Positions 14,552-40,827 of a DNA stretch of 44,967 bases are shown here, piece after piece. The notes below the pieces were generated by a model that worked only from the letters and a program-made list of their open reading frames with translations, was not told the DNA's origin and did not search any database. The DNA is taken from assembly GCA_946647665.1 (NCBI GenBank), contig CAMPCW010000004.1, positions 1-44,967 on the forward strand, read 5' to 3'. The stretch is from an uncultured Caryophanales bacterium. GTDB taxonomy: Bacteria > Bacillota_I > Bacilli_A > RFN20 > CAG-826. Position 1 is the stretch's first letter, and each line of letters begins with the position of its first letter. The translations under genes and the position numbers were made by a program.

Positions 14552-15196
14552 ATGATTACCGAGGCTATAGATTTTAGATATTTATTAATCGAAAATTATC
14601 GCAAACTAAAACTCAATGAAAATGAGGTAGCGACTATTTTTGTTATTGATCATCTTATTAGCCAAGGCAACCCTTTTGTAACCGCTGATTTATTATCTTT
14701 AAAAATGACTTTAGATATTAAAGAGATTGATAAGATTTTAGCTAAGCTTATTACTAAAGGTATGTTTGAGTATAAAACAATTGGTAAAAACACTGTTGCT
14801 ACTCTTGAGCCATTAAAACAAAAACTATATAGAGAATTCCAGTTATTCTTATCTAAAGAAGAAGAGGAAAAAAGCTCAACCAGAATTAAAGAAGAATTAG
14901 AGAACGTATACACTAATTACGAAAAATTATTAGGACGCTCCTTATCTCCTGTTGAAGTGGCAAAAATTCACGAATGGATTTCCTTTGGTTACAGTGATAA
15001 AACCATCATTGACGCTTTAAAAGAAGCGCTCTCAAAAGGCAAAAAAACCCTACGCAGCGTGGATAAAATCCTTTTAAGTTGGTCTCAAAGAGATGATTTA
15101 CAATCAGAAGGACATACTCCATTAAGTGAAGAATGGGATAAGAATTTAGAAGAAACAATCCGCATCGCAAAAATCCCGTGGATTAACAAAGACTAA
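14552..15196 (+). CDS. dnaD: DnaD-domain primosomal protein (ORF caller starts at GTG 14534)
   Basis: C-terminal LSPVEVAKIHEWISFGYSDKTIIDALKEAL typical of DnaD domain; followed by nth. Confidence 0.85.
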   Translation: MITEAIDFRYLLIENYRKLKLNENEVATIFVIDHLISQGNPFVTADLLSLKMTLDIKEIDKILAKLITKGMFEYKTIGKNTVATLEPLKQKLYREFQLFLSKEEEEKSSTRIKEELENVYTNYEKLLGRSLSPVEVAKIHEWISFGYSDKTIIDALKEALSKGKKTLRSVDKILLSWSQRDDLQSEGHTPLSEEWDKNLEETIRIAKIPWINKD

Positions 15197-15819
15197 TGCT
15201 ATCTAAAGAACAATTTAAAGAAGTTTCACGCTATTTAGACTCACTTTTTCCAGATGCAAAATGTGAGCTTTTTTATTCTCAAGATTATGAATTAGTGATC
15301 GCTGTGATGTTATCTGCGCAAACAACTGATAAGTCCGTTAACGCTGTTACTAGTCATTTATTTAAAAAGTATCCAACACTTAAATCTTTATTGGATGCTG
15401 ATATCAAAGATATTGAAAATGAAATTCAATCATTAGGTTTATATAAAAATAAGGCAAGAAATATTAAAGGCATCGCTGAAATTTTATATCACGAATTTAA
15501 TTCAGTTCTTCCAAGCGATAAAAATGAATTACAAAAATTGCCAGGGATTGGAAATAAGTCTGCTGGAGTAATTAGATGTGAAATTTTTAAAATCCCTGAT
15601 TTACCAGTAGATACTCATATCATTCGTATTTCAAATCGACTTGGAATTGCGAAAAGTAGTGACGAGCCAATTGATATTGAAAGAAAACTTAAAAAAATAA
15701 TCCCAGAAGAATCTTGGATTAAATCACATCATCAACTCATTCATTTTGGCAGATACTTCTGTACAGCCAGAAATCCAAAATGCAATAAATGCAAAATTAA
15801 AAAATATTGTAAGAATTAA
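15196..15819 (+). CDS. nth: Endonuclease III
   Basis: MLSAQTTDKSVN, LPGIGNKSAG, VDTHIIRISNRLG, CTARNPKCNKCKIKKYC 4Fe-4S motif. Confidence 0.95.
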   Translation: MLSKEQFKEVSRYLDSLFPDAKCELFYSQDYELVIAVMLSAQTTDKSVNAVTSHLFKKYPTLKSLLDADIKDIENEIQSLGLYKNKARNIKGIAEILYHEFNSVLPSDKNELQKLPGIGNKSAGVIRCEIFKIPDLPVDTHIIRISNRLGIAKSSDEPIDIERKLKKIIPEESWIKSHHQLIHFGRYFCTARNPKCNKCKIKKYCKN

Positions 15820-24340: not shown

Positions 24341-25780
24341 ATGAAAACAAAGATTATTAATTACCCAAATTTAAATGAAGCAAAGTCTAGAGTTAAATCT
24401 GAGACCGAGTTTTCCTTTTATTCTCCAATCCATATAAATGAGATGAAGGAATTAGGCAAAGGCAAGAAATATTACATTCATACATTTGGTTGTCAGGCAA
24501 ATATCCGTGATGAAGAAACTATGAAGGGAATGCTCGAATCTTCTAACTATGTCCAAACTAGCGATCCAAGTCAGGCTGATGTCATTATTATTAACACATG
24601 CGCAGTTAGAGAGAACGCCGAAGACAAAGTATATGGCGATATTGGCAATTTAAAAAAATATCGAAAAATTAATAAAAAATTAATCTTGGCAATCTGTGGA
24701 TGCATGGTTGAGCAACCAGAAATTTTAGATATCTTAATTAACAAATTCCCTGAAGTTAATCTTTATTTTGGCACTCATGAAATCGACCAATTATTAGATT
24801 TAATTTTTGAAACTTATCATAACGATGTTAGGTTAATTGCAATCAAATCTAAACAAGGCGAAGTTATCGAAAATAAAAACGTTTCTAGAAACAATGAATT
24901 TAAAGCTTATGTGAATATTATTTACGGTTGTAATAAGTTCTGCACTTACTGCATTGTTCCTTATACTAGAGGCAAAGAAAGAAGTAGGCATTTTGCTGAC
25001 ATCATGGATGAAGTTAGAGAGCTTAAAAAAGCTGGCTATCAAGAAATCACTTTCTTAGGTCAAAATGTCAATGCTTATGGAAAAGATCTTGATGAAGGCC
25101 ATGACTTTGCAGATGTGCTTGAAGAAGCCGCAAAAATGGGTATTCCAAGAATTAGGTTCACAACCTCTCATCCTTGGGATTTCTCCAGCAAAATGATAGA
25201 AATTATTGCGAAATACGATAATATCATGAAGTGTATTCACCTCCCAGTTCAATCAGGAAGTAGTGAAGTTTTACGCCTCATGGGAAGAAGATATTCTAGG
25301 GAGCATTATCTTAGCTTAGTAAAAGAGATGAGAAGTAAGATTCCAGGCTTATCTTTATCCACAGATATTATTGTAGGTTTCCCTAATGAGACTGTAGAAC
25401 AATTCAACGAGACTCTTACCCTTGTTGATGAAGTGAAATATGAGTCTGCTTTTACCTTTATTTATTCTCCAAGAAGAGGAACACCTGCCGCTAAGATTGA
25501 GGACAATGTTAGCTATGAAGAAAAGAGCAGAAGATTTAAAGAACTAGTTAAGCATTTAGAGGTTAATATTGAAGCTGATTCTAAATCCTATATTGGTGGT
25601 GTTTATAAGGTTTTAGTAGATGGAGTTAGTAAGACTGATAAAAACATGTTGTCTGGTTATACTGAATCCAACAAATTAGTTCATTTTAAGGGTGATGAAT
25701 CTTTAGTTGGAAAAATTATTAAAGTTAAGATTTTAGAAAGTCACACATATTCACTAATCGGAGAAATTGTTAATGAATGA
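24341..25780 (+). CDS. miaB: tRNA-2-methylthio-N6-dimethylallyladenosine synthase
   Basis: FGCQANIRDEE; radical-SAM CNKFCTYCIVPYTRGKERSR; TRAM domain C-term. Confidence 0.96.
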   Translation: MKTKIINYPNLNEAKSRVKSETEFSFYSPIHINEMKELGKGKKYYIHTFGCQANIRDEETMKGMLESSNYVQTSDPSQADVIIINTCAVRENAEDKVYGDIGNLKKYRKINKKLILAICGCMVEQPEILDILINKFPEVNLYFGTHEIDQLLDLIFETYHNDVRLIAIKSKQGEVIENKNVSRNNEFKAYVNIIYGCNKFCTYCIVPYTRGKERSRHFADIMDEVRELKKAGYQEITFLGQNVNAYGKDLDEGHDFADVLEEAAKMGIPRIRFTTSHPWDFSSKMIEIIAKYDNIMKCIHLPVQSGSSEVLRLMGRRYSREHYLSLVKEMRSKIPGLSLSTDIIVGFPNETVEQFNETLTLVDEVKYESAFTFIYSPRRGTPAAKIEDNVSYEEKSRRFKELVKHLEVNIEADSKSYIGGVYKVLVDGVSKTDKNMLSGYTESNKLVHFKGDESLVGKIIKVKILESHTYSLIGEIVNE

Positions 25781-37305: not shown

Positions 37306-38259
37306 ATGTTTGAACAAATTTGGGATTTAATCAAAAAGAACGATTCCATTGTGATTTATGGTCACATTAATCCCGATGGAGATTGTTATGGTTCTCAAGT
37401 CGGTTTGAAGGAAATTATTCTTTCAAATTTGCCCGGTAAGAAAGTCTATATCACTGGATCTGGAGTTCCTCCATTTTTTGATGTGATTTGTAAGATGGAT
37501 GAAGTCGATGACGAGACTATTAAAAATAGCTTGGCAATTATCGTGGACGGTAATGATTTAGCAAGAATGGAAGATTCTAGAATCTTCACCGCTAAAGAAT
37601 TTGCTAAAATTGACCATCACATTGATACCGGCACATTTAAAGAAGGTCCATATATTGTTGATGTTGATGCCAATAGCACTTGCGATATTATTACAGGCTT
37701 AGTGATAGAACATAATTTAAAGCTTTCTAAACTAGCTGCAAACGCTTTATTCCTTGGTATTCTTACCGATAGTGCCAGATTCCAATTCGTTTCTAATTTC
37801 CCTCAAACATTTGAAAGAGCGAAATTCTTATGTGAACATGGTGCTAACCCAAATAAAATCAACCGTGTTTTATCTAAATCTGATGAAATCTCTTTAGCAG
37901 CCAAAGGTTATGTTATGTCTCACTATAAGAAATCTAAAGAAGGTGTCATTTCTATTGTTTTAGATCGTCACACTTTAAAAGAACTTAACATTTCTGCTAA
38001 CCATGCATCTAATTTGATAAATTTATTAGGAAATATTGAGGGTTATCCTATTTGGTGTTCTTTTGCTGAATACGCAGATGGAAGAGTAAGAGCGGAATTT
38101 AGAAGTAATGGTCCAGAAGTACAACCAGTCGCTGTTAGTGTTGGTGGTGGTGGACACGCTCATGCTAGTGGAGCCCAACTCCAATCTTTAGATTACAATC
38201 AAATTGATGTTATTATTCGTAAACTCGATCAAGCAATTATCAATTGGAGAAAAAAATAA
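37306..38259 (+). CDS. nrnA: DHH/DHHA1 phosphoesterase (NrnA-like nanoRNase/pAp phosphatase)
   Basis: GHINPDGDCYGSQ, DHHIDTG, GGGGHAHASG. Confidence 0.88.
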   Translation: MFEQIWDLIKKNDSIVIYGHINPDGDCYGSQVGLKEIILSNLPGKKVYITGSGVPPFFDVICKMDEVDDETIKNSLAIIVDGNDLARMEDSRIFTAKEFAKIDHHIDTGTFKEGPYIVDVDANSTCDIITGLVIEHNLKLSKLAANALFLGILTDSARFQFVSNFPQTFERAKFLCEHGANPNKINRVLSKSDEISLAAKGYVMSHYKKSKEGVISIVLDRHTLKELNISANHASNLINLLGNIEGYPIWCSFAEYADGRVRAEFRSNGPEVQPVAVSVGGGGHAHASGAQLQSLDYNQIDVIIRKLDQAIINWRKK

Positions 38260-38261
38260 TT

Positions 38262-39038
38262 ATGTGGGAAAAAGAATTACAAGCTGCTATTGAAGCTGGT
38301 TTATTAGCCAAAAAGAAAATCATGGAGATTTATGCTCAACATTTTGATGTTGAAATTAAAGAAGATAATTCTCCAGTTACCATTGCTGATAAAAGCGCTG
38401 ATGAAATAATTAGAAATTATTTACATGAAAAGTTCCCTACTCATGCTTTTTTAACAGAAGAAAGTACTGATAATCTTGATAGATTAAAAAATGATTTTGT
38501 CTGGATTGTTGATCCAGTTGATGGCACTAAAGATTTTGTGGCTAAAGACGGTGAATTTACCACTAATATTGCTTTAGCTTATAAACATGAACTAGTAGTG
38601 GGTGTAGTTGTTGCTCCTGCAATTGATGAAATGTATTTTGCTTCAAAAGGTAATGGTAGTTATTTTCAAAAAGGTAATGAGAAGCCAATTAAGATACACG
38701 TGAATGATAAAACTGAAGATTTAACTATGTTAATCAGTGTCTTCCACTTCAACGATGCTGAAAAAGAATTTATCGAAAAACATAGCGATAAAATCAAACA
38801 CGTGGAAAGAAAAGGCAGTTCTTTAAAACCTTGCGCAATTGCACATGGCCTAGCGGAAATCACCTTAAGAAGAAGCCCAAACACTAAAGAATGGGATACA
38901 GCAGCTTGCCAAATCGTTGTCGAAGAAGCAGGTGGCTTATTTGTGGAACCAGATGGTACCCCTATAAAATATAACCGTGAAGATGTTTATAATCGTAAAG
39001 GTTATACAGTAGTGAACCGCAAAGAAAACTTATTCTAA
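38262..39038 (+). CDS. Inositol monophosphatase superfamily, CysQ-like 3'(2'),5'-bisphosphate nucleotidase
   Basis: DNSPVTIADKSADEII, WIVDPVDGTKDFVAKDGEFT, GSSLKPCAIAHGLAEITLRRSPNTKEWDTAACQI. Confidence 0.85.
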   Translation: MWEKELQAAIEAGLLAKKKIMEIYAQHFDVEIKEDNSPVTIADKSADEIIRNYLHEKFPTHAFLTEESTDNLDRLKNDFVWIVDPVDGTKDFVAKDGEFTTNIALAYKHELVVGVVVAPAIDEMYFASKGNGSYFQKGNEKPIKIHVNDKTEDLTMLISVFHFNDAEKEFIEKHSDKIKHVERKGSSLKPCAIAHGLAEITLRRSPNTKEWDTAACQIVVEEAGGLFVEPDGTPIKYNREDVYNRKGYTVVNRKENLF

Positions 39039-39088: not shown

Positions 39089-39163
39089 TGGCTGGGGTAC
39101 TTGGGATCGAACCAAGGAATGTCGGAGTCAGAGGCCGATGCCTTACCGCTTGGCTATACCCCA
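39089..39163 (-). tRNA. tRNA-Gln, anticodon CTG
   Basis: Reverse complement TGGGGTATAGCCAAGCGGTAAGGCATCGGCCTCTGACTCCGACATTCCTTGGTTCGATCCCAAGTACCCCAGCCA; encoded CCA. Confidence 0.9.
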
Positions 39164-39164
39164 A

Positions 39165-40283
39165 TTATTCCGCAAGTCTAACTTCAACTACACCAGGAAC
39201 TTCTTCTTGAAGAATAACTTCCACAAGGTCTTTGATATCACTATAAGCGTAGGAGCAGCCTTGGCACGCTCCAATCATTTTGACATAGACAATCCCGTCG
39301 TTAAAGGAAACGAATTCGCAATCTCCTCCGTCTTTTCTTAAGAAGTGTCTAATTTTATCTAGTGTTGAAATAATTAATTTTTCTGTATCGTCCATAATCT
39401 TATCGTCTTTAATTTCTAATTTATATCCGTCATAAGCATCCTTAGCGTTATTTAAGAAATGAGTTGCAACTTCTAAGAAATTATAGCCGTGCTTTTCTCC
39501 TTCTCCACGGTAGTGCTTAGTAACTGCTACATTATACCACTGAAGTGAGATATAAATCCTCCATAAATAATATCTTTTTATTTGATCCTGACTAGGATTA
39601 TTTAAAAAATATTTGTTTAAAAGTTCTCTTCCTTCAGAAACAAATCCATTTCCAAAACAGCTAATATCGTAAATTGGATCGTTATTTCCAACAAATTCAA
39701 AATCTATAAAGTAGTATTCATTATCTGGAGTTTTAATGATGTTACTTCTTTGAGCGTCATTATGACATAAAGCTTTCTTTTGACTTTCTAAATATTCTTT
39801 ATGTTCAAATAAGAAATCTCTTAATTCTTTATATAAAGGAGAGACTTCTTTTTGAAATGAAAGCGCCTCTTTTTCATAAGTTTCAGTGAATCTAACAAAT
39901 GGAGCGTAGTCAGTTTTTGATAAAACTGGTGAGGAATGCAAATCTCTAAATAATTGAGCAATCTTTTCATAATCAAAAGAATCAATTTTGTCTAATGATT
40001 GTCCTTCGATAAATTCATTAATCTTAATGCCTTTAGTTTCATCAAAATAGACGTTTCTACTTGTGATGCCAATCGCGTAGAAAATTCTTTGATGTTCTTT
40101 TTCTAATGGACGATCAACCATTTCGTTAGCTTGCTCAGTAGAAATATAAAGAACATATTTTTTATCATCTTTATCTTTAATAATATAGGAAATATTCATC
40201 ATTCCACCCACTAAAGGAGAAACGATTTCGCTACCCTTACCAAGCACATTTTCGATTAAAGAAAGGATTTCTTCTTTTTTCAT
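39165..40283 (-). CDS. Fusion: choline/ethanolamine kinase-like (APH superfamily) domain plus C-terminal NifU-like (Nfu) Fe-S scaffold domain
   Basis: Kinase: LVGGMMNISYII, ALCHNDAQRSNII, YFIDFEFVGNNDPIYDIS. Nfu: LDKIRHFLRKDGGDCEFVSFNDGIVYVKMIGACQGCSYAYSDIKDLVEVILQEEVPGVVEV. Confidence 0.88.
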   Translation of the reverse strand: MKKEEILSLIENVLGKGSEIVSPLVGGMMNISYIIKDKDDKKYVLYISTEQANEMVDRPLEKEHQRIFYAIGITSRNVYFDETKGIKINEFIEGQSLDKIDSFDYEKIAQLFRDLHSSPVLSKTDYAPFVRFTETYEKEALSFQKEVSPLYKELRDFLFEHKEYLESQKKALCHNDAQRSNIIKTPDNEYYFIDFEFVGNNDPIYDISCFGNGFVSEGRELLNKYFLNNPSQDQIKRYYLWRIYISLQWYNVAVTKHYRGEGEKHGYNFLEVATHFLNNAKDAYDGYKLEIKDDKIMDDTEKLIISTLDKIRHFLRKDGGDCEFVSFNDGIVYVKMIGACQGCSYAYSDIKDLVEVILQEEVPGVVEVRLAE

Positions 40284-40291
40284 AGCAACTT

Positions 40292-40300
40292 ATTATAGCA
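40292..40300 (-). promoter_or_regulatory. Extended -10 (TGCTATAAT) 8 nt before the kinase-Nfu fusion ATG; putative leaderless promoter
   Basis: Minus strand TGCTATAAT-AAGTTGCT-ATG. Confidence 0.6.
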
Positions 40301-40335: not shown

Positions 40336-40827
40336 ATGAAAGCCCGTAAAGTTTTATTCTATGTTTTCTTAGTTCTATCTATCGCTACCAATGTTTTGAT
40401 CATTGTTGAGTCCTCAATTGGTGGTGGAGGAAGTGCTGCTCAGTCCTTCTCTTTTAGTGAGTGGTTTGTAAATTTGTTAGAAAGTATCGGAATTTCTATT
40501 ACGGACAAGGAAGCTTTTCATGCGGTATTTAGAAAGCTAGTTGGCCACTTTTTACTCTTTGGTTTTTCTGGCTGTTTTACTATGTTGTCTCTAATTATGA
40601 ACGACTTTTTAACAAATAAATTTACTTGGAAAATTAATTTATTTTGTTTAGCTTTAGGTGTGACAGTTGCCATTATTAGCGAACTAATCCAAGCATTTGT
40701 TCCAGGAAGAGCAGGTACATTCACTGATGTATTTATTGATTTAGCAGGATATATATCGTTCGCCGGAATTACATATTTAATTTATTTTCTTGTTATTAGA
40801 CACAAAAGAAAGAAGATAGTTGAATAG
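40336..40827 (+). CDS. VanZ-like family membrane protein
   Basis: KLVGHFLLFGFSGC; ISELIQAFVPGRAGTFTDVFIDLAGYISF. Confidence 0.85.
   Translation: MKARKVLFYVFLVLSIATNVLIIVESSIGGGGSAAQSFSFSEWFVNLLESIGISITDKEAFHAVFRKLVGHFLLFGFSGCFTMLSLIMNDFLTNKFTWKINLFCLALGVTVAIISELIQAFVPGRAGTFTDVFIDLAGYISFAGITYLIYFLVIRHKRKKIVE

Follow-up and report, generated by a model that had tools for sequence, protein, structure and literature searches.

Architecture and locus of the fused gene

The window analysed here is a stretch of 44,967 nucleotides from an uncultured Caryophanales bacterium, and at 39165..40283 on its minus strand lies one open reading frame (372 amino acids and a stop codon) that joins an APH/choline-kinase-type domain to an Nfu (NifU-like) domain. 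The opposite (plus-strand) frame is full of stops. Judged against the curated cut-offs, three Pfam matches were found in the fused protein, all above threshold: Choline_kinase at residues 21-210 (56.6 bits, cut-off 29), APH at residues 22-228 (49.1 bits, cut-off 23.2) and NifU at residues 306-368 (70.8 bits, cut-off 27). All features within the frame are likewise on the minus strand. The kinase domain (residues 21-228; 39600..40223) contains the catalytic loop HNDAQRSN (residues 174-181; 39741..39764) and the metal-binding motif DFEF (residues 194-197; 39693..39704), which opens the longer stretch DFEFVGNNDP (residues 194-203). The Nfu domain (residues 306-368; 39180..39368) contains DGGDCEF (residues 318-324) and GACQGC, with the CxxC cluster-ligand motif at residues 340-343 (39255..39266). 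AlphaFold2 modelled the protein as two confident domains (mean pLDDT 86, pTM 0.75), with confidence lowest in the linker (residues 294-296) and around the CxxC (residues 341-345). The preliminary description had read a kinase–Nfu fusion from these motifs, with the CxxC intact, and had proposed a domain search, a structure prediction and a survey of relatives; the first two bear it out, as does the survey, which recovered the architecture in 18 genomes of the genus and separate genes in related genera.

The fused gene occupies a single syntenic locus throughout the genus, in the order argS, rpoE-like, nrnA, inositol-monophosphatase gene, tRNA-Gln, fused gene and a divergent VanZ-like gene, beyond which ABC transporters are found in nearly all cases. 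In the window, the convergent inositol monophosphatase-family gene lies at 38244..39038 (plus strand), tRNA-Gln(CTG) follows immediately after the fused gene at 39089..39163 (minus strand) and is kept at the locus in the 8 other genus genomes examined, and the VanZ-like neighbour, conserved in the genus, lies at 40336..40827 (plus strand).

Upstream of the fused gene is an extended -10 promoter element, TGCTATAAT (40292..40300, minus strand), which ends 8 nt before the ATG. Such an element was present in 16 of the 17 genus genes for which upstream sequence was available: in 15 of these 17, 7-8 nt separate the end of TGnTATAAT from the ATG, and in one more the element lies slightly farther upstream. 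A -10 element this close to the start codon suggests that the mRNA is leaderless.

Distribution and origin of the fusion

A full-length fused frame with no internal stop is present in 18 of the 19 genomes of the genus (66-100% identity), which are mostly rumen and horse metagenome assemblies. The lone genome without the fused gene, which is 72% complete, lacks Nfu altogether. In each of the 18 carriers, the fused copy is the sole NifU-domain match, and no second Nfu copy to relieve the fusion was found in them. Among the matches listed for 281 genomes of the order, no fusion was seen outside the genus, and Nfu there is encoded by open frames of ~76-206 aa, in keeping with the preliminary statement that Nfu usually stands alone. 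A model of the whole fusion gave no full-length match outside the genus in 395 class and 291 phylum genomes (overlapping sets), where its kinase and Nfu parts match separately. The fusion is real and fixed in this genus of rumen and gut Bacilli with small genomes.

In related genera, the kinase is a separate protein of 280-310 aa, 39-70% identical to the fused kinase, and in most of them its gene lies behind genes for a DagK/YegS-type lipid kinase and a PlsC-type acyltransferase. The separate nfu gene of these genera encodes 76-90 aa from its own promoter, with an extended -10 (TGnTAwTAT) lying 23-28 nt upstream of the ATG in 11 of 12 genes. It is usually convergent to the inositol-monophosphatase gene, the marker of the ancestral nfu locus in relatives, and this is the present site of the fused gene. 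Other genes sit between kinase and nfu in some genomes, as in G171, where they encode a 610-aa protein and LemA. The 610-aa protein (L075 5082-6914 and homologues) has no Pfam match and is found between kinase and LemA in several genera. A tandem pair of Nfu frames was also seen, in G164 (G164:C101:43-270 and 639-866) and in a genome of family f5 (G058:C2:121381-121945).

Closer arrangements are present as well. In genus g46, kinase and nfu are unfused neighbours 88-100 bp apart in four of six genomes, and in G091 they are separated by 45 nt that are in frame, with one TAA as the sole break. At the fused junction (residues 289-300; 39384..39419, minus strand), the natural C-terminus of the kinase (..DGYxLEIK) is followed by ~4 residues and then by the former N-terminus of Nfu (MDDT..); the unfused kinase of G118 ends DGYQKEIK-stop. 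The extended -10 of nfu is found at its old position in none of the 18 fused genes. In a tree of the kinases, the fused ones cluster together (support 92/73), as they do in 90% of bootstrap trees, and the kinases of genus g7, which lack the Nfu fusion, are their sisters. This grouping comes from the kinases, since the Nfu-domain tree, at 77 columns, is too short for placing the fusion.

The fusion arose once and is fixed in the genus. A separate kinase and a separate nfu became neighbours at the argS-rpoE-nrnA-IMPase locus, and the stop codon of the kinase and the promoter of nfu were then lost to give one reading frame; their loss, through one deletion or in two steps, is the simplest account. 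Among the options raised in the preliminary description was an accident of genome compaction, and the series of separate, neighbouring and fused genes in relatives fits it.

Kinases of the same family are found fused to other partners elsewhere in the Bacilli. In family f23 of the class, a Ham1/RdgB nucleotide pyrophosphatase is fused N-terminally to the kinase in three Pfam-confirmed cases, and the kinase of g7 (G119, G128) has an N-terminal, apparently transmembrane extension of ~160 aa to which no Pfam family matched. These fusions are in frame, as here, but their partners are N-terminal and unrelated to Nfu. Because the kinase family joins several unrelated partners in small genomes, an accident of gene order is favoured over a dedicated Fe-S link. 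The three f23 frames (L149, L150 and L151) are 488-495 aa long, and several more f23 genomes have open frames of similar size, which suggests that the Ham1/RdgB–kinase fusion is widespread there. The extended frames of g7, the sister to the fused clade, lie at L076 814-2172 and L078 1507-2868. In G281, a 645-aa frame (L152 1882-3816) begins with an APH-type kinase; its long C-terminal region matched no Pfam family but, judged by eye, may include a nuclease-like stretch and repeats of TPR-like type.

LicC-LicA is likewise a fusion involving a domain of the choline-kinase family, but its partner works in the same pathway, which Nfu does not, and it is a different paralogue. G009, within the genus, also encodes a LicC-LicA type with ~25% identity to the fused kinase. 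This frame (L109 202-1968) has a HTH-nucleotidyltransferase-choline kinase arrangement of 588 aa and, by eye, lies beside an amidohydrolase-like gene.

We consider it probable that this genuine, single-origin fusion is a product of chance gene order and yields a bifunctional, co-expressed polypeptide whose two halves are passively tethered. These cells would then produce Nfu solely as the C-terminal part of the kinase, using a single promoter that looks leaderless, and the link would consist of a tether and fixed co-expression, with no signalling coupling. The fusion would persist because re-splitting would need a new promoter and a new start.

The main alternative is functional coupling, in which the kinase domain steers Nfu to clients or the membrane, as in NfuA, or cluster occupancy regulates the kinase. 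It has a precedent, in that the fused domain of NfuA can target Nfu to clients (PMC8593673), and it would predict what is observed: the fusion, with its short linker, is retained in all genus genomes that yielded the gene, and has stayed in frame for long without re-splitting. However, no Fe-S genes were found beside the kinase in relatives, where the neighbours are lipid genes; the sister kinases of g7 lack the Nfu fusion; elsewhere, members of the kinase family are joined to unrelated partners; and each domain shows the same conservation as its standalone counterpart. We regard functional coupling as unlikely. A physical coupling in which Fe-S or redox status acts through Nfu as a switch for the kinase, or in which the kinase domain anchors Nfu at a site of lipid synthesis or at a client, has a similarly low, marginally smaller probability in our estimate; if true, it would physically join small-alcohol phosphorylation to Fe-S delivery. 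The proposal in the preliminary description that envelope decoration is coupled to Fe-S or redox status gains nothing from the surroundings of the gene, given the lack of a contextual link, the lipid operon in relatives and the unrelated partners elsewhere.

The kinase and Nfu halves

The nearest solved structure to the kinase half is the choline kinase LicA of Streptococcus pneumoniae (4R77/4R78/4R7B), which was both the best solved-structure match by sequence (E 1.7e-21, 255 residues) and Foldseek rank 1 for the model of the fused protein (4R7B/4R77). The fold and the Pfam Choline_kinase match are those of a LicA-type kinase. The catalytic residues of LicA are Asp176, Asn181, Asp194 and Glu196 (PMC4364537), and the fused kinase has their equivalents: H174, D176, N181, D194 and E196 are invariant in all 18 fused genes. 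Differing from LicA, it has no lic genes nearby and bears the C-terminal Nfu domain.

The substrate pocket is another matter. In LicA, choline is contacted by Thr29, Val178, Tyr197, Glu213, Trp251, Trp254 and Tyr268, Lys45 contacts bound MES, and Thr29 is needed for activity, with T29A reducing it to ~10% (PMC4364537). We compared these positions by sequence alignment, which covered all the named contacts except Tyr268. All 18 fused genes have Met29 and Tyr46 in place of Thr29 and Lys45, so the P-loop hydroxyl (Thr29 or Ser) of LicA-type choline kinases is absent; the equivalents of Val178 and Trp254 are Gln178 and Val252; and no acidic residue stands opposite Glu213. Tyr197 and Trp251 have equivalents that stay aromatic (Phe197 and Trp249). 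In this alignment, the LicA choline pocket is not preserved. All NCBIfam equivalogs for a defined kinase substrate scored far below their cut-offs, the best being GntI (82 vs 357 bits). Because several choline-contact positions differ, choline is a doubtful substrate for this kinase, and the choline-type substrate of the preliminary description is made unlikely by the pocket comparison. The linkage to DagK and PlsC genes in relatives suggests that the kinase acts in lipid metabolism.

The same replacements raise the question of whether the kinase half has become a pseudo-kinase whose sole remaining role is in the expression or dimerisation of Nfu, as the positions of Thr29 and Lys45 are altered in every fused gene. 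They prevail, however, in widespread unfused homologues (Met29 in 28/39, Tyr46 in 31/39), which makes them a family trait older than the fusion. Furthermore, D176, N181, D194 and E196 are invariant, and pairwise dN/dS across the kinase half is 0.03-0.10, a sequence-level signature of purifying selection. A pseudo-kinase is therefore improbable. Under the favoured reading, the kinase half would keep its original job of phosphorylating a small hydroxylated metabolite, probably not choline.

The C-terminal half has Nfu of Staphylococcus epidermidis (1XHJ) as its best solved-structure match (E 7e-12), and alongside the NifU score both C340 and C343 are kept in 18/18 genes. Its pairwise dN/dS of 0-0.14 likewise indicates purifying selection. 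It is the same complete domain, with CxxC, as the standalone Nfu of Firmicutes (S. epidermidis 1XHJ; S. aureus Nfu), here in a SUF-only organism; unlike those organisms, the genus has no separate gene, and its Nfu exists as the C-terminal part of a kinase. NfuA and NifU also carry Nfu C-terminally behind another domain, but their partners are a degenerate A-type carrier domain (NfuA) and an Fe-S scaffold (NifU), whereas here the partner is a metabolic kinase unrelated to Fe-S. The protein is not of the NfuA type: its N-terminal domain is a kinase, and the A-type carrier (PF01521) was found in none of the 19 genus genomes, compared with 9/14 control genomes.

The genus retains machinery that an Nfu could serve. 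G001 has a SUF operon (sufC-sufD-sufS-sufU-sufB), SufB/SufD are present in all eight complete genus genomes, and an Mrp-type ATPase is present in 18/19; no match to the SUF machinery was found in the window's own genome, which is itself incomplete (69%). With SUF present, no A-type carrier and a sole Nfu, the putative Nfu half should matter in the genus. It would take Fe-S clusters from SufCDSUB and hand them to clients such as MiaB (24341-25780) and endonuclease III (15196-15819), both encoded in the same window and both possible [4Fe-4S] clients. We infer from conservation and context that both halves may keep their original jobs.

Number of products and meaning of the fusion

The preliminary description had pointed out that an internal methionine at the junction might allow separate translation of Nfu, while seeing no strong Shine-Dalgarno sequence ahead of it. 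That residue, Met297 (39393..39395, minus strand), is indeed the former start codon of nfu, and its survival in 7 of the 18 genomes is what speaks for free Nfu still being released, from the old start or else by proteolysis. It is kept in the seven closest genomes only, though; the other 11 have Gln, Lys, Glu, Asp, Ser, Asn or His, and eight of the 18 fused genes have no in-frame ATG, GTG or TTG at residues 280-318. The nfu promoter is gone, the fused gene looks leaderless, and no Shine-Dalgarno sequence was found before Met297. We reject the internal start on these grounds, and the release of free Nfu by either route has little probability. With Met297 lost in 11 of the 18, junction starts missing in eight, no Shine-Dalgarno sequence and an apparently leaderless gene, it is very probable that the genus produces Nfu solely within the fusion.

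An assembly or frameshift artefact, for which the 69% completeness of the metagenome-derived source assembly might have spoken, is practically excluded and was rejected: relatives do have separate frames, as the preliminary description had foreseen for an error of this kind, but the intact frame and its conserved neighbours recur in 18 concordant genomes from independent projects.

The fusion combines two known domains in an architecture for which no description was found in the open-access literature searched; the many described proteins with this fusion that the preliminary description had allowed for were not encountered there. Its architecture and history are the strongly supported part of this account, and we infer the activity of either half. 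The most likely product is a bifunctional, co-expressed single polypeptide, apparently fixed by chance gene order.

The evolutionary trail is unusually complete, running from separate genes to neighbours, to genes one stop codon apart and to the fused gene. Since related kinases have gained several unrelated partners, caution is due over pathway links drawn from fusion alone, and gene fusion by itself is poor ground for such a link. The kinase family, which occurs widely in Bacilli and is associated with DagK and PlsC genes, is worth substrate testing. For the genus itself, the fusion would mean that a small Fe-S carrier tolerates permanent joining to an unrelated enzyme of 290 residues.
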